Made by a program: the position numbers and the translations under genes. From an uncultured Opitutia bacterium (GTDB taxonomy: Bacteria; Verrucomicrobiota; Verrucomicrobiia; Opitutales; Opitutaceae), in assembly GCA_903840415.1 (NCBI GenBank), contig CAIMFY010000089.1, positions 1 through 50,205 on the forward strand: a DNA stretch of 50,205 nucleotides, written 5' to 3'. The notes under the pieces were generated by a model that did no database searches, was not told the origin of the DNA, and saw nothing but the letters and a program-made list of their open reading frames with translations. Below are positions 779-10,353 of this stretch, one piece after another (the first letter of the stretch is position 1; each line of letters starts with the position of its first letter).

Positions 779-1321
779 TGCCGTCGTCGACGTTCCACCA
801 CTGCCGGCGGCAACGTTAATCACGTAGGTGAAAACCGGCGATGTATTCCCTTTTGTGTTGGCACTCTCGAAGGCCTGCAACGTGGCCGAGCAGGAACCAG
901 CCGTAGTCGGCGTCCCGGATAGCGTTAGGGTGGACGTGTTGATGTTGCCGGGAGCAGTCAACCCCGAGAACGACATGCCAGGCGGAATCGAACCACCGAT
1001 TTTCCAGGAACCGGGAAGCCCTTGCACACCCTTCACCGCGTAAACCACCATTGGCGCAGCTGTGCCAGCCGTCACAGCCAGCGGGCTCGGATAGTTATTG
1101 GTCGTGAGCGTCGTCGCACCCGCCATCGAATGGAGCGCACCGAGCGAGGCGGCCGTGAGCATGACGGAGCGCAACACCGTGCCGACGGGCGAGGCGGCCA
1201 CGATCTCAGCTGCCGTCGACGCTACCTGAACCACCGGCGAACGCTGGAGCAACGCGAAGAGCAGCGCTCCGGGAAGGTTGAGCCAACGCATCTGGCGGGA
1301 AAACAGCAGAGAAGGATTCAT
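1..1321 (-). CDS. Ig-like repeat surface protein, 5' part (runs off left edge)
   Basis: The frame is open from the ATG at 1319-1321 to the window edge, giving about 440 residues with no stop. The N-terminus has hydrophobic stretches (MRWLNLPGALLFALLQ, then VMLTAASLGALHSMAGA), so export is likely, though the start could lie at one of the internal Met codons. Residues of about 100-165 read as a putative-Ig fold (GSIPPGMSF, TLSGTPTTAGSCSATL). From about residue 178 onward come 88-residue Ig-like units, each with the pattern TQPxSQTV, YQWxxNG, AGNYTVVATNSAGS. Such arrays are typical of large verrucomicrobial surface proteins. Function is unknown; adhesion or substrate binding is only an inference. 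It lies downstream of the DUF4266 gene on the same strand, 102 bp away, and may be a separate transcript. The C-terminus, which would carry any anchor, is outside the window. Confidence 0.85.
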   Translation of the reverse strand, partial: MNPSLLFSRQMRWLNLPGALLFALLQRSPVVQVASTAAEIVAASPVGTVLRSVMLTAASLGALHSMAGATTLTTNNYPSPLAVTAGTAAPMVVYAVKGVQGLPGSWKIGGSIPPGMSFSGLTAPGNINTSTLTLSGTPTTAGSCSATLQAFESANTKGNTSPVFTYVINVAAGSGGTSTTAPAFTTQPVSQTVTAGAAVTFTAAASGSPTPTYQWNFNGAAISSATNASFSLASAQTTDAGNYTVVATNSAGSATSSTAALVVNAATVAPAFSTQPASQTVTTGATVTFTAAASGTPAPTYQWSLNGTAIAGATSATLSLSNVQTSAAGNYTVVATNSAGSATSSTATLVVNAATIAPAFSTQPASQTVTTGATVTFTAAASGTPAPTYQWSLNGTAIAGATSATLSLSNVQTSAAGNYTVVATNSAGSATSSTATLVVN

Positions 1322-1423: not shown

Positions 1424-1660
1424 TTAGTTGCAGCCGCAACCGGCACCACCGACTCCGCGACCACCCGACGCGCTCTCGCGCGAAAAATAAATATGCTCCG
1501 TCATCGCCGTGGCCATCGGATCACGGCCGGGATTCATCGTGTAGTCGGCGAGGGTCGCGCGCTCCCACGGCTTCACCCGGACAAGATTGGTGTTGGTGCA
1601 GCCGCTGAAAACGGCGGCGCTGCCGACCAGAGCGAGAAGGAAGAGGCTTTTGGATTTCAT
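1424..1660 (-). CDS. DUF4266 family small lipoprotein
   Basis: A 78-residue product starting MKSKSLFLLALVGSAAVFSGC, which is a lipoprotein signal peptide with lipobox VFSGC and Cys21 as the lipidated residue. The mature part contains VRVKPWERATLADYTM, then a Gly-rich tail ending GAGCGCN. The PWER-LAxxxM core and the GCGCN end match what I recall of DUF4266. The ATG at 1658-1660 was chosen because it places the signal peptide at the N-terminus; the open frame extends upstream but only through the preceding gene. It starts 4 bp after the TlpA-like stop, so it is the last gene of the DUF3570/ApbE/TlpA/DUF4266 set. Function is unknown; the terminal Cys-Gly-Cys could bind metal or be a thioredoxin substrate (inference). 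Confidence 0.85.
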   Translation of the reverse strand: MKSKSLFLLALVGSAAVFSGCTNTNLVRVKPWERATLADYTMNPGRDPMATAMTEHIYFSRESASGGRGVGGAGCGCN

Positions 1661-1664
1661 GACA

Positions 1665-2168
1665 TTAATTTTTTTCGGCAAGGAGGAGATCGATTTCATG
1701 GCGGATCTGTTTGTCGGTGGCGTCGCCATGGAAACCTTCATGCACGAAGCGCACCTGACCCGTGCGATCGAGCAGGTAGCTCGTCGGCATCGTGGGCACG
1801 ACGACCTGCTGCACGAGTTTCTGCTCGCGATCATGGAGTGTAACGAACGGCGGCGATTGTTTTTTCCAAAATGCCACCGCCGCCGGCGCCTTTTCGTCGA
1901 TGCTCACCGCGGCGATAATCAGCCCACGCGCCGCATAGTCGTTATGGAGCTTCGCCATCGCGGGAAACGATGCCTTGCACGGCGCGCACCACGACGCCCA
2001 AAAATCCATCAGGACGACATGTCCGGCCGTCGCCGGCAGATCGCCGCCGGCCAGATTGACAACACCGGCGGGGGCGAGCGCTGGGAACGCCGCGCCGACT
2101 TTCACGTCGGCTCGTGCCAGTGCAGCGCAAGCGAGCGCCACGAAGAACAGTTTAATTTGATGCGACAT
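1665..2168 (-). CDS. TlpA-like periplasmic thioredoxin
   Basis: A 167-residue protein with a signal peptide (MSHQIKLFFVALACAALARA) and a thioredoxin fold. The redox centre is WCAPC (Cys61 and Cys64) in the context MDFWASWCAPCKASFP, typical of the TlpA/ResA/AhpC-TSA group. The cis-Pro region VVPTMPTSYLLD and the following strand DRTGQVRFVHEG complete the fold. It probably acts as a periplasmic thiol-disulfide reductase. The start overlaps the end of the ApbE gene by 17 bp, and its stop is 4 bp from the DUF4266 start, so the genes are probably co-translated. The open frame extends far upstream, but that part is a shadow of apbE. The likely partner is the Cys-containing DUF4266 lipoprotein (inference from position). 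Confidence 0.9.
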   Translation of the reverse strand: MSHQIKLFFVALACAALARADVKVGAAFPALAPAGVVNLAGGDLPATAGHVVLMDFWASWCAPCKASFPAMAKLHNDYAARGLIIAAVSIDEKAPAAVAFWKKQSPPFVTLHDREQKLVQQVVVPTMPTSYLLDRTGQVRFVHEGFHGDATDKQIRHEIDLLLAEKN

Positions 2169-3132
2169 AATTGAAAAATCCCCGCGTTTGCGCCCGCGCC
2201 AGTTCGGTGAGCAGCAGACCCTCGGCGCCGGGGCAGGCTTGGATAAAATCGACACCCGCCGGCACCCCGAGCACGAAGGCCGTCGTCGAAAGCACGCCCG
2301 CCTGCAGACACGTGCCTGCAATGACCGTCGCCTGCACGCAACCGTTGGCGACCGGCCAGCCCGTCCGCGGATCGACAATGTGGCCGTAGCGCCGGCCAGC
2401 GATCGTGAAACAGCGCAGATAATCACCGGAGGAAGCGACGCCCTTTCCCACCACCGCAATGCTGCCCGAGGTCGCGCCAGGCTTTTTCGGATCCTCAAGG
2501 CCGATGTGCCACGCCGGCCGACCCGGCGGCGCGCCGATGGCACGAAGATCGTGGCCGAAATCCACCAGCGCACATGGCAACGCGTGGTCCACCGCCAGCT
2601 GAGCGACGATGTCGACGGCGTATTCCTTGCCGAAGCCGCCGAAGTCGAGCGCCATGCCGGGCTCGGGCAGATAGATTTTTCCCGGCGCACGCTGCACCTT
2701 CTTCCAACCGACGAGCGCCCGCGCTGCCGCGATCTCGGCGGCCGACGGCACGCGCGGCTGCTCTGCTTTATAATTCCAAATGCGCAGCAACGGTAGCGCC
2801 GTCGGATCGAGCACGCCCTGCGTCATGAAATACAGTGTATCGCAGAGCTTGAGCAGGCCTTCCATCTCCGCATCGACATCCACCCACGCGCGTCCCGCGG
2901 CGGCATTGATCCGGCTCACGAGACTGTCGGGACGGAAGCGCGAGTATTTCGCCTCGAAGGCATTCACCCATGCGACCGCCGCCCGCTCAAACGCTACCGA
3001 CTGCGCGTCGCCACCAGAATACTGCACTTCGCACGTCGTCCCCAGCGCGCGGAAGGAAAGCTTCCGCAACGGTGCGACTGCACCGGTCGGAACCGATGGC
3101 GGCGGGCGATGGGCTTGAGCGACAACGGCCAC
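2152..3132 (-). CDS. apbE: FAD:protein FMN transferase (ApbE family)
   Basis: A 326-residue protein with the ApbE landmarks: RALGTTCEVQ near residue 30, the glycine-rich MALDFGGFGKEYAVD, VDFGHDLRAIG, VASSGDY, and HIVDPRTGWPV followed by an A-x-x-A-x-x-L-S-T-T-A segment. ApbE enzymes transfer FMN from FAD to a Thr or Ser of exported proteins, with Mg2+, in the periplasm. The N-terminus is short and not an obvious signal peptide, so either export is by an unusual leader or the start is elsewhere. Upstream, the DUF3570 gene ends 33 bp before this start; that protein has an FMN-acceptor-like motif and is the most likely substrate. Downstream the gene overlaps the TlpA-like gene. Confidence 0.92.
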   Translation of the reverse strand: MAVVAQAHRPPPSVPTGAVAPLRKLSFRALGTTCEVQYSGGDAQSVAFERAAVAWVNAFEAKYSRFRPDSLVSRINAAAGRAWVDVDAEMEGLLKLCDTLYFMTQGVLDPTALPLLRIWNYKAEQPRVPSAAEIAAARALVGWKKVQRAPGKIYLPEPGMALDFGGFGKEYAVDIVAQLAVDHALPCALVDFGHDLRAIGAPPGRPAWHIGLEDPKKPGATSGSIAVVGKGVASSGDYLRCFTIAGRRYGHIVDPRTGWPVANGCVQATVIAGTCLQAGVLSTTAFVLGVPAGVDFIQACPGAEGLLLTELARAQTRGFFNYVASN

Positions 3133-3165
3133 GGGGATTTTCGACAGGGACGATGGTGCGAAAAA

Positions 3166-4332
3166 TTACCAAGAATACTTGCCGCCCACCGTGACCACCC
3201 GCGCACGCGGATAGGCACTTTGCGGCGTGACACTGTCAGTGCCGCGCATCACGTATTCCTCAAGCGCCACATCAAGATCGATCCGCTCAGTCACCTTCCA
3301 GATCACTTTCAGACCGTAGTTGAACGTGTGCAGCGAGGAGAGTCGGTAGTCCGACGAATAGAAAGGACCGCTCGACGACGCCAATCCCATGGGCGGCGTG
3401 ACCGAGGAATTGTTGAGATTGTAGTGATAAAAATCCGCGGCGCTCTGCGAGTAGGCCCGGAAGCCGGGCCGCAGGATCACTTTTTCTCCGAGGTGCTGGA
3501 ACCACGCCAGATCCACTGTGTGGGCGGACGTGCCGAAGGTGTCGTGATAGTAACGGTAGGTCGCATCGAGTGCGCCATGAAGTTCGGAAAACGTGCGGTT
3601 GTAGCCAATCAGGCTAACCCATTTTTCGCGGTAAGCCGGACGGTTTTCGCCGAAAGTGAGCGGCAACACGACGCCAGGAAAAATCTGCGTGTCTTTTTCG
3701 ACTTCCTTGTAGGGATCCGAGATGTAACCCGAAGCGCGACCCCAGGTGACGTTGAACGTGACAGACGTCAGCGGATTGATCAACTGCGTGACGCCGACAA
3801 TGACGTCGTTGGTGTGCTTGCGCGCCCGCGGTCCTTGAAAAAAGACTTTGATCTTGTCGTCGGTGCCGGCGAGGCCGGCGAGGAGCGTGGTGTTCTTCTG
3901 GTTGAAATCGGTCAGCGTGTTAATGGACCAACCATTCGACACGTAATCGCTTTCGCGGCTGTTGCCGAGGCCGAGACCAATGTTGATACCGGGAAACTGG
4001 CGGGAAAAATCCAGAGTCCACGACTTGCGATGCTCGGGATTCAGTTGAGTCGTGTCGACCTGATTACTGCCGGCAGGTGCCGGCACACCGGTCGGCGTGG
4101 CACCAGTAATCGCATCGTTTACGCCCTCAAACTTGAGGTGCATGTCGGTGCTGATATCCTGCTCGATGACAACTCCATTCGTCTTGACGGCGATTCGCCC
4201 GCCCGCCTCGTCGTAGGTTTCGTATTTGTAAGCGATCGAGTTTTCGGCTCGGGCCGCGCGCGGCGCGAGCCAGACCAAGAAGCTCGCCAGCAATAACGAG
4301 CGGCGCGAATTATTAGAATAAGTGGATTGCAT
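3166..4332 (-). CDS. DUF3570 outer-membrane protein, possible ApbE substrate
   Basis: A 388-residue product with a signal peptide (RRSLLLASFLVWLAPRAARA, cleavage after about residue 29). The body is rich in alternating polar and aromatic strands and ends in GGKYSW, the terminal aromatic typical of outer-membrane beta-barrels. The strands, the match to DUF3570 and the next-door ApbE, TlpA-like and DUF4266 genes support the family call. Residues 73-81 read DAITGATPT, close to the D-x-x-[ST]-G-A-T-x-[TS] acceptor site that ApbE flavinylates in FMN-binding domains; Thr79 would be the modified residue. I chose the ATG at 4330-4332 rather than the longer frame to 4437 because it starts at the signal peptide. 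Electron transfer at the outer membrane is an inference. Confidence 0.85.
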   Translation of the reverse strand: MQSTYSNNSRRSLLLASFLVWLAPRAARAENSIAYKYETYDEAGGRIAVKTNGVVIEQDISTDMHLKFEGVNDAITGATPTGVPAPAGSNQVDTTQLNPEHRKSWTLDFSRQFPGINIGLGLGNSRESDYVSNGWSINTLTDFNQKNTTLLAGLAGTDDKIKVFFQGPRARKHTNDVIVGVTQLINPLTSVTFNVTWGRASGYISDPYKEVEKDTQIFPGVVLPLTFGENRPAYREKWVSLIGYNRTFSELHGALDATYRYYHDTFGTSAHTVDLAWFQHLGEKVILRPGFRAYSQSAADFYHYNLNNSSVTPPMGLASSSGPFYSSDYRLSSLHTFNYGLKVIWKVTERIDLDVALEEYVMRGTDSVTPQSAYPRARVVTVGGKYSW

Positions 4333-4506: not shown

Positions 4507-5070
4507 CTAGCGACTCTTAGCGATCTCCACGGAGGAGACCCGTAAAACCAGACTGAGTTGCGCGCGATTTACTGGATCGGGCCGCAGCGTGAACTGCTCA
4601 ATGCCGATGTAAGGCGAGCGTTGCTGCAAAGCGCTGTAGAATTTCGTGAGCGCATCCCAATTCTTGCCCGGATCAGGATCGCGGAGGTTCACGGTGTAAT
4701 CGAGCGTGTGAATGGAAAACTGGGCGTTGCCCGGAGGATTGCTCGGCGCCGCGCTGGTGGTGTTTCGTAGACCGGCGTCGGAGGCCATTTTTTGCACGGC
4801 CTCCAGAAGGCGCACGCCGTCGAGCGTCTTCGTCGCGTCCAACCGCGCGGCGGCCTTTTGCGCCGCCGTCTCGACGCTGGCGCGGTTGCCCAGCCACTGG
4901 GCCTGCTCCGCCAGATCGATGGAGGTGCGATGCTGTTCGCGCCAGAAAGCGCTAGCCCGCTTGCTGAAATTGGAGAGCCAGACCAGCACCGCGAGAGCGA
5001 GAAAGCCGACAACGAGCATCTTCTCGCGCAATTGACAGCCAAGGAAATGGGCGCGAAGCGTACGGATCAT
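4507..5070 (-). CDS. gspM: GspM-like type II secretion protein
   Basis: A 187-residue bitopic protein: a short cytoplasmic N-terminus, one membrane segment at about residues 17-34 (KMLVVGFLALAVLVWLSNF), then a helical stretch and a C-terminal alpha/beta domain with periodic strands (FSIHTLDYTVNLRD, IGIEQFTLRPDP, QLSLVLRVSSVEI). This layout and the position directly after a GspL-like gene fit GspM, the inner-membrane platform subunit that pairs with GspL. The ATG at 5068-5070 overlaps the gspL stop by 4 bp (ATGA), suggesting translational coupling. Sequence similarity in this family is low, so the call leans on topology and context. Confidence 0.72.
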   Translation of the reverse strand: MIRTLRAHFLGCQLREKMLVVGFLALAVLVWLSNFSKRASAFWREQHRTSIDLAEQAQWLGNRASVETAAQKAAARLDATKTLDGVRLLEAVQKMASDAGLRNTTSAAPSNPPGNAQFSIHTLDYTVNLRDPDPGKNWDALTKFYSALQQRSPYIGIEQFTLRPDPVNRAQLSLVLRVSSVEIAKSR

Positions 5071-6221
5071 GAGGCGGACGCGGGTTTGACCGCGTCGGGT
5101 TTGAAGGTGATGACCAACCGAAATGGCGTCAGGTCGCCGCGCGCACCCTGCGGCTGCATGTCCACTTTGTCGCACAGGGAAAGTTTTTCGAGGGCGGACT
5201 GGTAGAGGCTGATCTGGCCGGCGTTGTTCGTCTGGCCCTCAATGCTCAACGTATAAAGTCCGTTCGCCGTGGCCGCCTGCACGCGAGTGAAAATCATGCC
5301 CGGAGGCAGGAGTTCGCCGTTCACGCCCATCACGACGGTAAGCATTTCCAGCGGCAGGAGCCGCTTCGTGGCGAGATCGTCGATATGGATGGCGAGCGCG
5401 TTTGACGTCATGATCGCCTCGACGCGCGGGCGCTGTGTATTGAGTTTCGCGAGTCGAACCTTCGACCACTGCAACCCACCGAGACGCCCAATTTCGAGCG
5501 CACCCAACAGCGCCAGCACCGCCGCGCAACCCAGCGCGAGCCGCCACAGGAGAATGTCACGACGGCGGGCGCCGCGGAGTGTGGCGAGTTCGTCTTTGTC
5601 CCGCACGTCGAGCGCCGCAGCGAGCGGAGCCGGCAGGCGCGAAACAAAATCGCCCGACCGAAAGACTCGCTCGCGATCGGTGAGCGCGGGGTCGGCGGTA
5701 GGCGGGCCAGCCAAATCGATGACGGTCTTGCTGCCACCGATGGTGCGGATCAATTCGTCGCGCGCCTGGGTGCGATCGTCGTCGGTGGCTTCGGGCGCAA
5801 GCGGATGGCAGAGAACTTTCGCCGGCACTCGGCCGTTGTCCCAGAAGACAGCGGTCAGGCTGTCCGGCGCCGCGAGGATGACGGTCGTCGCAGGTTGGAC
5901 CACCGTCCCCAGCACGGTGGCAAACGCCGGCAGCACCAGTTCGGCGCTGGGCCAGGCGGCCGTCTGCTCGCTGGTAAAACGGCGACGGTAGGACGCGAAC
6001 ACGATGGCGCGGTCGGCGCCGGGCACCCAAAACCAGCCGTAGTAAAGTTGCGCGAGCGGAAAAGGCGCGACGGCCTCGAGTGCGAGTTCGATCTGTGCCG
6101 CGGCTTCAGCGTCGGTCGCTCCGGCGGCAACCGGCAGGGCGCGCGTGAAGAAAAGCGCATCCGGGAGGAGCGCGATCTTGGGCGGCGGCGGGCCGGCGCG
6201 GAGCGTTTCGAAAAATTTCAT
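5067..6221 (-). CDS. gspL: GspL-like type II secretion inner-membrane platform protein
   Basis: A 384-residue protein with a cytoplasmic N-terminal domain (about 1-220), one membrane helix at about 223-246 (ILLWRLALGCAAVLALLGALEIG), a coiled segment, and a periplasmic ferredoxin-like domain (LYTLSIEGQTNNAGQISLYQ). That is the GspL arrangement, also seen in PilM-PilN fusions of type IV pili. Its role would be to link the secretion ATPase to the pseudopilus platform. The N-terminal domain lacks obvious actin-like phosphate motifs by eye. It starts 76 bp after the gspK stop and overlaps gspM by 4 bp. The secretion ATPase (GspE) it should contact is not in the window. Confidence 0.75.
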   Translation of the reverse strand: MKFFETLRAGPPPPKIALLPDALFFTRALPVAAGATDAEAAAQIELALEAVAPFPLAQLYYGWFWVPGADRAIVFASYRRRFTSEQTAAWPSAELVLPAFATVLGTVVQPATTVILAAPDSLTAVFWDNGRVPAKVLCHPLAPEATDDDRTQARDELIRTIGGSKTVIDLAGPPTADPALTDRERVFRSGDFVSRLPAPLAAALDVRDKDELATLRGARRRDILLWRLALGCAAVLALLGALEIGRLGGLQWSKVRLAKLNTQRPRVEAIMTSNALAIHIDDLATKRLLPLEMLTVVMGVNGELLPPGMIFTRVQAATANGLYTLSIEGQTNNAGQISLYQSALEKLSLCDKVDMQPQGARGDLTPFRLVITFKPDAVKPASAS

Positions 6222-6297
6222 GCAGGGAGGCAGGCGGCGGGCAGTGCGACCGCGTCAGGCAAAGGAAGATGCAAAAGATTGGGTGCGCGAATGCAAT

Positions 6298-7452
6298 TTA
6301 TTGAGGCGGGGGCGGCGGTGCGGGTGGCGGAGGGATTTCATCATTCTCGCGAATCTCAAGAAGCGTAAAGGGGTATTTCAGGCTCGGCGGCGCGCCGGTC
6401 TGGCTAGCGCCGGACTTAGTCTGGCCGCCGGCCGCCTGCGCGGCATTGGGTTTGTTTTGCTGCTGCGCGGCGGGCGATGTCTCGGTGCGCTGCGACGTCG
6501 CCGTCTGGGTAACGGTGGTCGCGCCGGCGCCCTGCGGTGTGACGACGGCGGCCAGTCGAAACAGCGAATTGCCGTCGTGCACCGTGACAAATATCCGCAG
6601 CGCACTGATCGTGGTGGAGAAGGCGCCGATATTTCCAGCGGCGCCGGCGACATTCTGGGCGTCAGCCAAGTCTTGAAAATAGCCGGGCCCGTGCGTGGTG
6701 TAGTTGCCGGTGCCCGCGATGAAGTCGTTCACGTTTTGCTGCTGCGACAACCCAAACTGGCCGAGCGCTAGCATCGCATCGGGATTCGCGCCATTGATGT
6801 TGGGCTTGGTGAAATTCAACAGCGAAACCGCCGCCACAAATCGCCGCCAGAGATCGTTGGGCTGGCCGTCGGCATCGTAGAAAACGTCGCGCGCCTTCTC
6901 GATCGCGGCGAGTTCGGCATACGCACGCAGGGGGCGGTTGGGCGACTCGTAGGGTGGCGTAAATTGCTCGTAGTCGGGCGCGATCGCCGAGGTGTAGGTG
7001 TGGCCGCGCTGCATCCAGCCCATGATTGAGTCGGCCAAGGTGTCAGCATCCGTCTTCGTCAATTCCCAAGTTTGAAACAGCCGGGAGAGCGTGTCCGCGT
7101 CGGTGTGCGGAAGGGAGATTTTGCCGCTCTCATCCTCGAAGCCGATCTCCACCGTGCGGTCTTCCGTCGGCGTGTAACCGGCGAAGCCCAGCGGATCGCC
7201 CCAGCCTTCGGCGGGGCTGTGCAGGCCGTTGCCAGCTTCGCGAAAATCCTCGAGCACCGCGAGCGTGACCTCGAGCGCCGAGTAGGCCTCCATGCGTAGC
7301 CGGCGCGCCTCGGCGTCGTGCTGTTCGACGAGCAGATCGTTGCCGGCTTTCTCGATGAAGGCCACGAGGGCGAACGCCGTGAAGAGTAGCGTGATCATCA
7401 CGATGACCAGGACGCTGGCGCGGACGGCAAAATTGGGTGAACGCGGTTGCAT
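6298..7452 (-). CDS. gspK: Type II secretion minor pseudopilin GspK
   Basis: A 384-residue protein with an N-terminal hydrophobic helix (SVLVIVMITLLFTAFALVAF) after a short basic leader. The candidate prepilin-peptidase site is RA|SVLVIV, with Ala at -1 and no Glu at +5, as expected for GspK. The helix-rich body contains the GspK-type region DESGKISLPHTDADTLSRLF and a helix-hairpin-like NINGANPDAMLALG segment. GspK caps the pseudopilus tip with GspI and GspJ. The C-terminal 60 residues are Gln/Thr/Ala-rich and end in a proline run (DEIPPPPAPPPPPQ), which is not part of the usual fold. It starts 4 bp after the gspJ stop. Confidence 0.85.
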   Translation of the reverse strand: MQPRSPNFAVRASVLVIVMITLLFTAFALVAFIEKAGNDLLVEQHDAEARRLRMEAYSALEVTLAVLEDFREAGNGLHSPAEGWGDPLGFAGYTPTEDRTVEIGFEDESGKISLPHTDADTLSRLFQTWELTKTDADTLADSIMGWMQRGHTYTSAIAPDYEQFTPPYESPNRPLRAYAELAAIEKARDVFYDADGQPNDLWRRFVAAVSLLNFTKPNINGANPDAMLALGQFGLSQQQNVNDFIAGTGNYTTHGPGYFQDLADAQNVAGAAGNIGAFSTTISALRIFVTVHDGNSLFRLAAVVTPQGAGATTVTQTATSQRTETSPAAQQQNKPNAAQAAGGQTKSGASQTGAPPSLKYPFTLLEIRENDEIPPPPAPPPPPQ

Positions 7453-7455
7453 CGT

Positions 7456-8133
7456 TCAGAAGAGTGGCAACGCCTCGGTCGGGGACGGCAGCGTGAGGAC
7501 ACTCTCGTTCGTCATCTTGCCATAGGTAAACTTGAGCCGCAGGCGCTGCGGCGTCAGCGGCGTGGTGCCACCATTCGGATCGGGCTTGAGCACGGTCTCG
7601 GTCGTCCACCGCTGCGAATCGGGGTCGTAATAATCGTAGGCCAGCGACGTGACGAGCGGCGTGACGACCGTCTCGCGCGGCGGTTCGCTGTCGAAGTTTT
7701 TCTCGAGGCGCGAATGCCAGAGCAAGATGAGACCCTCGTTCGGGCGCACTTGCAGCGAGCACACGACTTCGGGCAACGGTCGTTTCGGGTCGGGCCACAC
7801 GCCGAGTCGGCTGCCGGCGGGCAATTCAAACGTGAGCAGTTTTTCCTGCTGGCCGTTTTGCGGGGTGACGTCCTGCAACGCGATCGGCGTCGAGCGTGCG
7901 ACGGCGGCCGGCGGCAGCACCGCGGAACGCAATTCATGATCGAGGAAACGCGTGACGGCGCGGACGTGCTGATCGAAGAGGCGGACGTCGGTGTTGCGCC
8001 CCCAGAGTTCGCCCATCGAAAAAACAAACGTGTTCAGCGCCACGAGCATCAGCGCGACCAGCGCCAGCGAGAGCAGAATCTCCAGCAGCGTGAAGGCGCG
8101 AGAGCGCTGGTTGCAAGCAACGGACGCGATCAC
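7456..8133 (-). CDS. gspJ: Type II secretion minor pseudopilin GspJ
   Basis: A 225-residue prepilin with a leader of about 13 residues, then RA|FTLLEILLSLALVALML: Phe at +1, Glu at +5 and a hydrophobic helix. The globular part includes RAVTRFLDHELRSAVLP, and SRLEKNFDSEPPRETVVTP, fitting GspJ. The GTG at 8131-8133 is the best start: it overlaps the gspI stop (GTGA) and gives a normal-length leader, while the longer open frame upstream is a shadow of gspI. Ala instead of Gly at -1 is noteworthy. It is one of three consecutive minor pseudopilins (I, J, K) that would form the pseudopilus tip. Confidence 0.85.
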   Translation of the reverse strand: MIASVACNQRSRAFTLLEILLSLALVALMLVALNTFVFSMGELWGRNTDVRLFDQHVRAVTRFLDHELRSAVLPPAAVARSTPIALQDVTPQNGQQEKLLTFELPAGSRLGVWPDPKRPLPEVVCSLQVRPNEGLILLWHSRLEKNFDSEPPRETVVTPLVTSLAYDYYDPDSQRWTTETVLKPDPNGGTTPLTPQRLRLKFTYGKMTNESVLTLPSPTEALPLF

Positions 8134-8648
8134 GATTTTGGCCTCCGCGCGAGCCCACCACTGCCGGTTCCCGCGCTGGCGCCGGTGCCCGCAGTCTTGC
8201 CCTGGATTTCGTTGATGCGATTCCGTGCATCCTGCTTCAGCTGGCTGCGCGCCGCCGGATCGATCGACCAGGTCGGGCGCAGGAGGGTGAAAGTCTGGAC
8301 GGTTTTGTCGGGCTGCGGCTGCGCGGGATCGGAGATTTCGCAGGTAAACACCACGGTGAACAAATCGGCCGTCGCCGTCGGCGTGATCACGGCACTCCAC
8401 TTCACGTGACGACCGGAGGCTCCCTCGAATTCGCCGCCGTCCTCCAGCTTCGTGCTGTCGGGCTGAGTAACAACGAGCGAGCGGGCAAACGCGAGATCCT
8501 CGCTCGTCCGGGCGGTGCGCCCGGCGATCGCGTAGGAATTGAGGACGTTGACGTAGGTCCCACCCAGGATGATCGCCGAGAGCGCAAAGATCGTCAGCGC
8601 GACGAGCACCTCGACGAGCGAGAAAGCACGGTGACGAAATTTCCTCAT
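8130..8648 (-). CDS. gspI: Type II secretion minor pseudopilin GspI
   Basis: A 172-residue prepilin beginning MRKFRHRA|FSLVEVLVALTIFALSA, with the cleavage site after Ala8 (Ala rather than Gly at -1), Glu at +5 and a typical hydrophobic helix. The C-terminal part is longer than usual for GspI and ends in a low-complexity GTGASAGTGSGGLARR tail. The ATG at 8646-8648 overlaps the gspH stop by 4 bp (ATGA). The position between H and J matches the common gspG-H-I-J-K order. GspI is the core of the I-J-K tip complex. Confidence 0.85.
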   Translation of the reverse strand: MRKFRHRAFSLVEVLVALTIFALSAIILGGTYVNVLNSYAIAGRTARTSEDLAFARSLVVTQPDSTKLEDGGEFEGASGRHVKWSAVITPTATADLFTVVFTCEISDPAQPQPDKTVQTFTLLRPTWSIDPAARSQLKQDARNRINEIQGKTAGTGASAGTGSGGLARRPKS

Positions 8649-9244
8649 GACGCGGGGAGCGCGTTTGGATCCGGTGGTGTGAGCACTGGCGCGCACGTCC
8701 ACGGATCGATTGCGACGAGGTGCGTGGCGCCGCCGCGTTCAAACTGCGCGCGAAACGCGGTGCAGGTGCCGTCCGCATAAAAAATGGCGGCAGGAATCGT
8801 CTGCGTCTCGACCATCTGACCCGCGACGAGGATGGCGCTCGCGCCTTTTTGCGTCGTGAGAAAACTCACGGTGAGGCCGAAGCTGGTCGCGGCGGGCAGT
8901 GGAAACGCCTGCGGTGTGATGCCGTCAGACACGAGGAAGGCTTTGCCCTTGTCGCGGTCGTCGACGAAGGTGAGCCGGATTTCGTGGCCGGATTTCAGCG
9001 CCTCCTTGCGGGCTTTCTGCACGGCTTTCCAGAAAATCTCGTCGGCCGAGGTGGGCTGGTCGTTCAACAAGTGCGCGGATCCGCCGATGAGCACGCCGCC
9101 GAGCAGCGCGATGATCGCAATTGCGAGCAGAAGTTCTAGCACGGTAAACCCACGCCGGACGGCGCGGAGAGTCCTCTGACGAAAAACCGGAGTCGAATGC
9201 ACGGGCGGGACGCGGGCACGGGCCGCGCGGAAAGGTTCAGACAT
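8645..9244 (-). CDS. gspH: Type II secretion minor pseudopilin GspH
   Basis: A 199-residue prepilin. The site RRG|FTVLELLLAIAIIALLGGVLIG (after Gly32) has the canonical Gly at -1 and Glu at +5. The globular domain has GspH-type features: AVQKARKEALKSGHEIRLTFVDD, and IPAAIFYADGTCTAFRAQF before the C-terminus. The 32-residue leader from the ATG at 9244 is long for a prepilin, so translation may begin at a downstream alternative codon. It lies 16 bp after gspG and overlaps gspI. Confidence 0.83.
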   Translation of the reverse strand: MSEPFRAARARVPPVHSTPVFRQRTLRAVRRGFTVLELLLAIAIIALLGGVLIGGSAHLLNDQPTSADEIFWKAVQKARKEALKSGHEIRLTFVDDRDKGKAFLVSDGITPQAFPLPAATSFGLTVSFLTTQKGASAILVAGQMVETQTIPAAIFYADGTCTAFRAQFERGGATHLVAIDPWTCAPVLTPPDPNALPAS

Positions 9245-9260
9245 CCGTCACGAGAAAACG

Positions 9261-9743
9261 TTACTTCGCCACGCCGGCCGCGGCGGCGTCGTCCCAGTTG
9301 CCGATATCCTGCGGCTTTTCCGGCGGGCCTTTCGACCACAGATCGTAGCCGGTTTTGTTGTGGGTGCCGGGAAAAGCGTATTGGTAAGGTTGACCCCAAG
9401 GATCCATGGGAATTTTTCCCTCAACGTAAGGGCCGTGCCAGCGATCGGACTTGTCGGCGGGCGGGGTGACGAGCGCCTGCAAGCCTTCGGCAGTGGACGG
9501 ATAGCCGCCCATGTGGAGGCTGTAGGTAAAGAGCGGCGCTTTTATGCTCTCCTTCACGAAAAGCTGCGCCGTCGACGCCTGCGCGGTGCCGAAAATTTGG
9601 TTGACGTTGGTGATCGCGAGACCCGCCAGGAGGGCCAGGATCGCGAGCACCACGAGGAGTTCCATCATCGTAAAACCGCGGCGGGCGGAACGAGCAAAGG
9701 AGCGGCGACCGAAGATGCGCGGGGCGGATGGAGAAATAGTCAT
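9261..9743 (-). CDS. gspG: Type II secretion major pseudopilin GspG
   Basis: A 160-residue prepilin cleaved at RRG|FTMMELLVVLAILALLAG (after Gly23). The mature part carries the GspG signature: GYPSTAEGLQALVTPP, VEGKIPMDPWGQPYQY, TGYDLWSKGPP and DIGNWDD. GspG forms the shaft of the type II secretion pseudopilus. The segment after SKGPP is shorter than the usual calcium-binding loop. The ATG at 9741-9743 was chosen over an upstream in-frame Met because the upstream part lies over the preceding gene. It is the first bona fide Gsp gene of the run, 70 bp after the preceding gene. Confidence 0.92.
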   Translation of the reverse strand: MTISPSAPRIFGRRSFARSARRGFTMMELLVVLAILALLAGLAITNVNQIFGTAQASTAQLFVKESIKAPLFTYSLHMGGYPSTAEGLQALVTPPADKSDRWHGPYVEGKIPMDPWGQPYQYAFPGTHNKTGYDLWSKGPPEKPQDIGNWDDAAAAGVAK

Positions 9744-9813
9744 GGCGGAGGGAAATTTGGCGCGCAGCGCGCAGAAGTCGAGACGCGAGCGGCGGACAAA
9801 CCGGACCGTCCTG

Positions 9814-10353
9814 TCACTTTGGCCAGGGCGCAAACTCGACGTCGTCCGCCGTGCCGAACTGCCGATCGGGGCCGGCGGAGTGAATCTCCATCTGCGTGCC
9901 GCTCAGTTGGTGAAACCGAAACGGCGTGCCCCACCGATCGCATAGTTCGCCGGCGGCGTTGATGGCGGGGTGGTTTTTCGGGACGAAGGCGAAGCCGATC
10001 GGATTGGCGCCGGTTAGCGCGGCGGTGATTTCGGAATTTTCCCCGACCGGATTGCCTGTGCGCGGGAAGTTGGTCTGAAAATTCACGAAGAGTTCATTGA
10101 GCACTTCGAGATCGCGGCGGATGGTGCCGGTCGGAGCGTTGAGCTCGGCGGCGAGAGGATTCGGGCCGCTGTCGGCGGCGGCACTCGGATTTTCGATTTT
10201 CGATTTTCGATTTTCGATTGCGGGCGGAGCGGATGATGCCGAAAGGGGCGGCGCGTTAGCGATGACGCGCCCTACCCTTAGAAATAAAATCGCAGCGAGG
10301 CCGAGAAGGAGCGCGGCGACGAGCGCGAACAGCGTAGCGCGGCGCACGGTCAT
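9814..10353 (-). CDS. Membrane-anchored protein with a pseudopilin-like C-terminal domain
   Basis: A 179-residue protein with one N-terminal membrane segment (about residues 6-27) and no prepilin cleavage motif. After a low-complexity linker come a helix (RRDLEVLNELFVNFQTNFP) and an end, CDRWGTPFRFHQL, then SAGPDRQFGTADDVEF, that resembles the C-terminal DPWG / S-x-G-x-D-x-x-x-G-T-x-D-D segment of GspG-like pseudopilins. It could be an accessory pseudopilus or platform component, possibly replacing GspC, but this is inference. The ATG overlaps the DUF1501 stop (TGATG), and gspG follows 70 bp later. The linker contains an in-frame heptad-repeat insertion encoding IENRKSKIEN. Confidence 0.7.
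   Translation of the reverse strand: MTVRRATLFALVAALLLGLAAILFLRVGRVIANAPPLSASSAPPAIENRKSKIENPSAAADSGPNPLAAELNAPTGTIRRDLEVLNELFVNFQTNFPRTGNPVGENSEITAALTGANPIGFAFVPKNHPAINAAGELCDRWGTPFRFHQLSGTQMEIHSAGPDRQFGTADDVEFAPWPK
10187..10219 (-). repeat. In-frame TTTTCGA heptad repeat
   Basis: Four to five tandem copies of a 7-bp unit (plus strand TTTTCGA) lie inside the membrane-protein gene and encode IENRKSKIEN. The base composition is far more AT-rich than the surrounding gene. Because three heptads equal seven codons, such arrays can expand without breaking the frame in multiples of three units. Confidence 0.85.

Follow-up and report, generated by a model that had tools for sequence, protein, structure and literature searches.

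The window analyzed here, i.e., the whole stretch of 50,205 nucleotides (positions 1 to 50,205) from contig C89 (CAIMFY010000089.1) of the genome of an uncultured Opitutia bacterium (G000), carries at one end a group of five genes on the minus strand. These encode a DUF3570 protein, an ApbE-family transferase for flavin mononucleotide (FMN), a TlpA/ResA-like thioredoxin, a DUF4266 protein, and a protein with immunoglobulin (Ig) repeats, referred to as Ig_N (Table 1). The family assignments of the first two are well supported by scores of 213.7 bits against PF12094 (curated cut-off 25) and 243.3 bits against PF02424 (curated cut-off 25.6), while neither DUF3570 nor DUF4266 has a family match in NCBIfam. 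The apbE gene starts 33 bp past the DUF3570 stop codon, and the DUF3570 product contains the ApbE-substrate motif D-x-x-[ST]-G-A-[ST] in the form DAITGAT (residues 73-79). An original prediction, made for this DNA from its letters, had placed the motif and the spacing exactly there, and both were reproduced.

Table 1. Positions of genes and sequence features at the DUF3570 locus
Feature	Position	Strand	Remarks
DUF3570 protein	3166..4332	minus	388 aa; PF12094 E 5e-63; predicted signal peptide and 16-strand outer-membrane barrel
Flavinylation-type motif DAITGATPT, residues 73-81	4090..4116	minus	acceptor Thr79, codon 4096-4098
ApbE-family FMN transferase, 326 aa, GTG start	2152..3132	minus	PF02424 E 4e-72; signal peptide undetectable
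ApbE Gly279	2296..2298	minus	place of catalytic/Mg-binding Asp (FmnB Asp301); alignments and codon
ApbE Glu170	2623..2625	minus	directly follows the Lys that aligns with Lys190 of FmnB, an FAD-binding residue; the Asp class has Gly here
ApbE Asp195	2548..2550	minus	place of FmnB Asn216; alignment and codon
TlpA/ResA-like thioredoxin, CAPC, predicted exported	1665..2168	minus	PF08534, PF00578, PF13905; overlaps the apbE stop
DUF4266 lipoprotein-like protein, C-terminus GCGCN	1424..1660	minus	PF14086 E 3e-22
Ig-repeat protein (Ig_N), predicted secreted, running off the contig end	2..1321	minus	PF13927, PF07679; co-occurrence with DUF3570
HSMAGAT in the Ig_N N-terminus	1112..1132	minus	candidate second site of flavinylation (acceptor place Thr70), or else a signal-peptidase site

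The central claim of the original prediction, namely that DUF3570 is flavinylated by its ApbE, was already published in 2021. Meheust et al. (eLife, PMC8238504) demonstrated that the DUF3570 protein of C. luteolum is flavinylated by its cognate ApbE upon co-expression in Escherichia coli, and that flavinylation is abolished only when Ser is replaced by Ala at both sites. The motif is kept in the window, and covalent flavinylation of the DUF3570 barrel encoded here is very probable as well. The clusters of PMC8238504 combine ApbE/DUF3570 genes with those for DUF4266, a thioredoxin-like protein and, in some cases, DsbD (316 clusters lack DsbD). The gene families are the same as in the window, with DUF3570 as the demonstrated ApbE substrate there and the probable one here. 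The C-terminal CxC of DUF4266 is likewise present in the window. However, the thioredoxin-like proteins of the published system belong to PF13899, whereas the window protein matches Redoxin, AhpC-TSA, Thioredoxin_8, Thioredoxin, and Thioredoxin_2 (E up to 0.001) and not PF13899. DsbD, a member of some published clusters, has no match on the window contig. Moreover, the DUF3570 proteins described in PMC8238504 have two [ST]GA[ST] sites, whereas that of the window has only one; single-site proteins like it therefore differ from the two-site proteins, a comparison that refers to the published description and not to the C. luteolum sequence itself. A literature search of incomplete coverage found no other paper naming DUF3570 or DUF4266; a 2024 paper (PMC11334425) lists the outer membrane among the sites of flavinylated proteins, but DUF3570 is not named in its main text.

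Motif conservation and the predicted barrel

A search with the hidden Markov model (HMM) of the family revealed that 82 of the 150 genomes from the same family encode DUF3570, as do 30 of the 288 in a phylum sample that includes this family. Conservation was evaluated for those distinct proteins from the HMM search that reach 300 aa (108 in total), leaving out shorter pieces (fragments of L122) and the pattern-derived loci L033-L112. The pattern [DN]xxxG[AS][ST]P is kept in 105 of these 108 proteins, comprising 91 of the 94 with an ApbE in view and all 14 without (2 of the 14 lie at a contig edge). The strict form D..[ST]GA[ST] occurs in 45, while the first Ser/Thr is replaced by Ala in 45 and by Val in 4; Asn takes the place of the motif Asp in nine proteins, and two have GSS. 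The three proteins without the motif (L133-L135) carry a QSGASGD site in the loop just past the usual place, and a model of L134 (predicted local distance difference test, pLDDT, 82.6) likewise places the SGAS site in this loop, although the local confidence is low. The original prediction had proposed asking whether the DxxTGAT block is conserved specifically beside apbE. Conserved it is; specificity, however, had to be rejected, since the proteins without an ApbE in view carry the motif too, and it is thus a general property of the family.

The DUF3570 proteins with Asn for the motif Asp (L113-L115, L120, L125, L127, L128, L131, and L132) have, in those viewed, a long low-complexity insert directly after the motif, as would be expected of an exposed loop. 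Furthermore, GSS or GST instead of GA[ST] was seen beside apbE at L117, L126, and L173.

An AlphaFold model built on 104 relatives (mean pLDDT 95.3) consists of a signal helix followed by 16 long strands that form a closed antiparallel barrel and, together with the predicted signal peptide and an aromatic C-terminal residue (Trp), it gives confident backing to the outer-membrane barrel of the original prediction. In comparisons with the PDB, the 50 matches listed for each were outer-membrane barrels or models of them, among them BamA (Z 22.0), PelB-type proteins, BcsC, CymA, and OmpG (VIA-align Z up to 22), while a sequence search at E up to 1 yielded no solved relative. The N- and C-termini of such barrels are periplasmic. 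With the termini of DUF3570 placed accordingly, Thr79 terminates strand 3 at its top, i.e., where the long, presumably extracellular loops are located. Judged from the hydrophobic alternation, which is clear for strand 3, both Asp73 and Thr79 appear to face the lumen. The upper lumen-facing positions form the most conserved zone, with a mean entropy of 1.15; the lower lumen reaches 1.96 (p 4.5e-6), and positions facing the lipid range from 1.88 to 2.36. Moreover, 45 of the 60 most conserved residues fall into the upper lumen or the upper loops, zones that make up 170 of 357 barrel positions, and in the model this conserved upper lumen looks like a vestibule for a flavin. The searched passages of PMC8238504 do not mention DUF3570 as a "barrel" or "porin". 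An RR pair (Tat-like) is present in the signal peptide of the window protein as well as in some of ten relatives, which by eye share no Tat motif.

ApbEs of the DUF3570 loci

Export signals were evaluated with a hydropathy rule applied over all possible start codons and not with SignalP. The ApbEs of DUF3570 loci begin almost at the catalytic domain, and a signal-like segment was scored in only 5 of 96 vs 28 of 33 other ApbEs of the phylum. Three of the 5 positives belong to the QSGASGD type, one (L116) is false because the segment lies inside the domain, and one (L123) is marginal. The same rule was positive for 98 of 112 DUF3570, 99 of 103 TlpA-like, and 31 of 61 DUF4266 proteins. For the window ApbE, no possible start codon yields a hydrophobic segment, so that by this heuristic it lacks the N-terminal signal or lipobox that is typical of most characterized ApbE transferases. 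This also sets it apart from the ApbE of PMC8238504, for which a signal-peptide truncation given in the methods implies an exported enzyme. A cytosolic ApbE is known from Klebsiella pneumoniae, which requires it for the flavinylation of a specific protein, its soluble fumarate reductase (PMC12052999). While this ApbE lacks a signal peptide like that of the window, its substrate stays in the cytosol, whereas the window substrate is a predicted exported outer-membrane barrel. A literature search of incomplete coverage found no description of a cytosolic ApbE serving an exported barrel.

The active site was compared across 127 ApbEs, a set that excludes pieces, such as L133, that extend fewer than 200 residues past the start of the domain. 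All 127 retain the catalytic Ser and His, while the Asp of the Asp-Ser-His triad is Gly in 92 of the 94 ApbEs of DUF3570 loci (one from a Vibrio plasmid included) and in 1 of 33 others; 91 of the 94 combine this Gly with the absence of a signal. The window ApbE has Ser235 and His251, with Gly279 in place of Asp. The original prediction mentioned neither this replacement nor the undetectable export signal. Residues were compared with those of FmnB of Listeria monocytogenes (PMC8906456), a member of the same family that shares the Ser and His, whereas a search of PMC4767422 for named Mg ligands yielded none; the FmnB numbering was mapped by hand via the HMMER alignment, with an offset of 20 that puts Asp184, Lys190, Asn216, Ser257, His273, and Asp301 of FmnB on matching letters. 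Relative to FmnB, the window ApbE has Gly for Asp301, Glu for the Gly after Lys190, and Asp for Asn216. Across 135 aligned ApbEs, the residues at the Asp301 place and after Lys190 form the pair Gly/Glu in 93, Asp/Gly in 40, and another combination in 2, and the Asn216 place holds Asp in 93 of 93 ApbEs of the Gly class vs 4 of 40 of the Asp class. In FmnB, both Mg ions are coordinated by Asp301, which is in turn held by Asn216; Ala187 is a further Mg contact, and Lys190 touches flavin adenine dinucleotide (FAD) (PMC8906456). The swapped positions thus either touch Mg or FAD or adjoin residues that do so. In a tree built without these columns, the acid swap needs two changes (a quick method, with several long branches), and the sequences suggest that the Gly/Glu pairing probably stems from one evolutionary event.

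The loss of Asp as a plain companion of cytosolic ApbEs was considered and rejected. Two ApbEs encoded beside flavocytochrome c in Pantoea, which were used as stand-ins for the fumarate-reductase type and are signal-less by eye, keep the Asp.

A DUF3570 cluster with a signal-less Gly/Glu ApbE was also found on a megaplasmid of the gammaproteobacterium Vibrio sp. THAF191d (L137); the variant is therefore not confined to Verrucomicrobiota.

Probable flavinylation before export and its alternatives

Judged from the sequences, the most likely and simplest account would be that the barrel receives its flavin in the cytosol, while it is unfolded and not yet exported. We consider it rather probable that DUF3570 is an outer-membrane flavin-barrel whose precursor is modified by a cytosolic Gly-class ApbE before export by Sec, with the acids Glu170 and Asp195 standing in for the missing Asp. 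In this clade, the neighboring ApbE would stay in the cytosol and attach FMN, as shown for the relative, to Thr79 of the still unfolded precursor. The flavinylated precursor would then be exported by Sec and fold into the outer membrane, so that the flavin comes to lie in the conserved vestibule at the extracellular rim, which a periplasmic ApbE could presumably not reach once the barrel is inserted. Glu170 and Asp195 would functionally replace the lost Mg-binding Asp, and TlpA and the CxC protein DUF4266 would probably connect the flavin to a DsbD-type donor by relaying electrons between the two, as proposed in PMC8238504. Sec accepts preproteins that were already modified in the cytosol (PMC3418276). 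Furthermore, according to the methods of PMC8238504, a sister protein was cloned with its signal peptide truncated, "a similar cloning strategy" was used for the DUF3570/ApbE pair, and the C. luteolum DUF3570 product was mostly in the pellet. These points suggest that ApbE can act on a barrel before its assembly.

Several points weigh against this account. The hydropathy rule recognized just half of the DUF4266 proteins, and 29 of the 33 comparison ApbEs belong to the best-scoring ApbEs of 59 genomes, which may favor canonical ones. The assignment of lumen- and lipid-facing residues rests on an alternation that is weak for strands 2 and 7. Moreover, Ala at the Mg-contacting residues of FmnB, Asp301 included, greatly reduces or abolishes activity (PMC8906456), and no assay of the activity of a Gly-class ApbE turned up. 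Since the tree needs two changes, the perfect pairing amounts to about one event and marks a clade instead of repeated coevolution, while the Asp of the Pantoea ApbEs indicates that an absent signal and a lost Asp are not tied in general. Finally, an ApbE-DUF2271 fusion in the same genome implies that DUF3570 is not the sole likely substrate.

A distinctly less probable alternative is ordinary periplasmic flavinylation, with the ApbE exported by a route that is invisible to the hydropathy rule or with another exported ApbE modifying the barrel before its assembly. Such a location would agree with most characterized ApbEs, which are periplasmic lipoproteins (review, PMC12052999). Furthermore, a distant ApbE may serve some DUF3570 proteins, given the 14 without an ApbE in view (2 of them due to a contig end) and the presence of ApbEs elsewhere in all 4 genomes tested. 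However, the combination of a missing signal with Gly in nearly all locus ApbEs argues against it, and no other ApbE of the window's genome (on contigs C63, C96, and C52) scored as signal-bearing. That the Gly-class ApbE is no FMN transferase for Thr79 at all, being inactive or transferring something else while the motif is kept for another reason, appears quite unlikely. The Gly at the triad Asp in 93 of the 135 aligned ApbEs and the sensitivity of the FmnB Mg contacts, among which Asp301 binds both ions, would fit such an enzyme, whereas the invariant Ser and His, the acids gained at two nearby places, and the strongly conserved acceptor motif speak for a transferase. As for a chance match within a structural turn, 0.36% of 100,000 shuffles of the window DUF3570 contain D..[ST]GA[ST], so chance alone would be possible for one protein. 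The conservation of the motif among relatives is the stronger argument, however, and outweighs the shuffle statistic; together with the flavinylation shown for C. luteolum DUF3570 (PMC8238504), it opposes a chance origin. This makes the chance match very improbable and close to refuted.

The flavinylation of exported proteins by ApbE is understood as an extracytosolic event. If the preferred account of modification before export is true, flavinylation would shift to the inside of the cell for a large group of signal-less ApbEs that have an outer-membrane barrel as their partner, and this would account for a flavin at the outward side of the outer membrane. With the acid swapped, the metal site of ApbE would have a second, testable solution. 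Porin-cytochrome conduits (e.g., MtrAB) also tie an outer-membrane barrel to envelope redox proteins; they use hemes, whereas the system described here would use flavin and thiols, and a conduit role for it is a guess. What appears to be new, on the grounds of sequence alone, are the signal-less ApbEs of the loci, the swap of Asp to Gly and Gly to Glu, and the co-occurrence with Ig_N.

The Ig_N protein and the genomic context

An Ig_N relative lies at most 900 bp downstream of 79 of the 114 DUF4266 genes with room for one, a count that mixes pattern- and HMM-derived loci without deduplication. The N-terminal family of Ig_N (alignment A4) is matched strongly and almost over its full length in 81 of the 150 family genomes, comprising 80 of the 82 genomes with DUF3570 vs 1 of the 68 without (G014, 81% complete; Fisher p 4e-39, ignoring kinship). 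Four weak matches restricted to the C-terminus (G006, G013, G051, and G149) were left out, and their inclusion gives 80 of 82 vs 5 of 68. Since at most 24 (family) or 12 (phylum) candidates were scored per genome, copies may be missed. In six genera (g2, g7, g17, g20, g21, and g37), some members have both Ig_N and DUF3570, while another has neither (with the weak G006 match of g7 counted as none). In the phylum sample, Ig_N was found in 11 of 11 DUF3570 genomes of the family, in 4 of the 5 from elsewhere in the class, and in 0 of 14 beyond the class, and the link to DUF3570 is thus limited to this class. A role as partner of all DUF3570 systems was therefore rejected. Within the class, the association appears to be new, as Ig_N had not been linked to the ApbE before, and the passages of PMC8238504 that were consulted do not mention an Ig-repeat partner. 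It may serve as a handle on the role of these uncharacterized redox systems. Furthermore, in G130 and G113 a Gly/Glu ApbE directly precedes Ig_N, with no DUF3570 within the 1.5 kb shown.

The N-terminal signature of the Ig_N family consists of LLQR.P and GA[TS]. In 98 aligned N-termini, the Gly and the Ala are each kept in 97, the acceptor place is Thr in 89, Ser in 8, and Ala in 1, and six residues before it stand His (50), Asp (24), Asn (17), or Gln (6). According to a review, the loss of the motif Asp had a minor effect in one ApbE substrate. While the GA[TS] site is a possible second flavinylation motif, AGA|T lies where a hydrophobic stretch ends and may also fit a signal-peptidase site, perhaps within a special export signal. 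We regard it as rather unlikely that ApbE modifies both DUF3570 and Ig_N (at [DHNQ]-[STA]-x-A-G-A-[TS]) before export, with its metal site relocated and with the barrel and an Ig fiber forming a heme-free flavin conduit from the envelope to the cell surface. If true, proteins that function in the outer membrane and beyond would receive their flavin while still in the cytosol.

Regarding the remaining cluster members, the CxxC of the TlpA-like protein is present in 102 of 103 relatives and the C-x-C of DUF4266 in 59 of 60. Two DsbD matches were found in the window's genome, on contigs C13 and C17. An FMN_bind domain was detected in none of 6 genomes (the window's and 5 relatives), while a control search was positive in 4 of 14 named genomes.

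The window's genome encodes four ApbEs. Besides the one at the DUF3570 locus, these are a second signal-less ApbE with the Gly/Glu swap that is not beside DUF3570 (contig C63, L193), a signal-less ApbE with Asp (contig C96), and the ApbE-DUF2271 fusion (contig C52, L191), which has Asn at the place of the catalytic Asp and is below the signal cut, with an N-terminus that is signal-like to the eye.

At three loci (L200, L208, and L212), a stretch of about 15 kb holds two complete DUF3570-ApbE-TlpA-DUF4266 clusters. The genes that separate or flank these clusters encode histidine kinases, response regulators, Ig proteins, and NHL proteins. These were the only neighbors in the wider gene context, in which no terminal electron acceptor was identified. 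In the window, directly upstream of the DUF3570 gene (about 4507-9833, minus strand), type II secretion-like genes are encoded, one of them with a GspK match and the others recognized by inspection.

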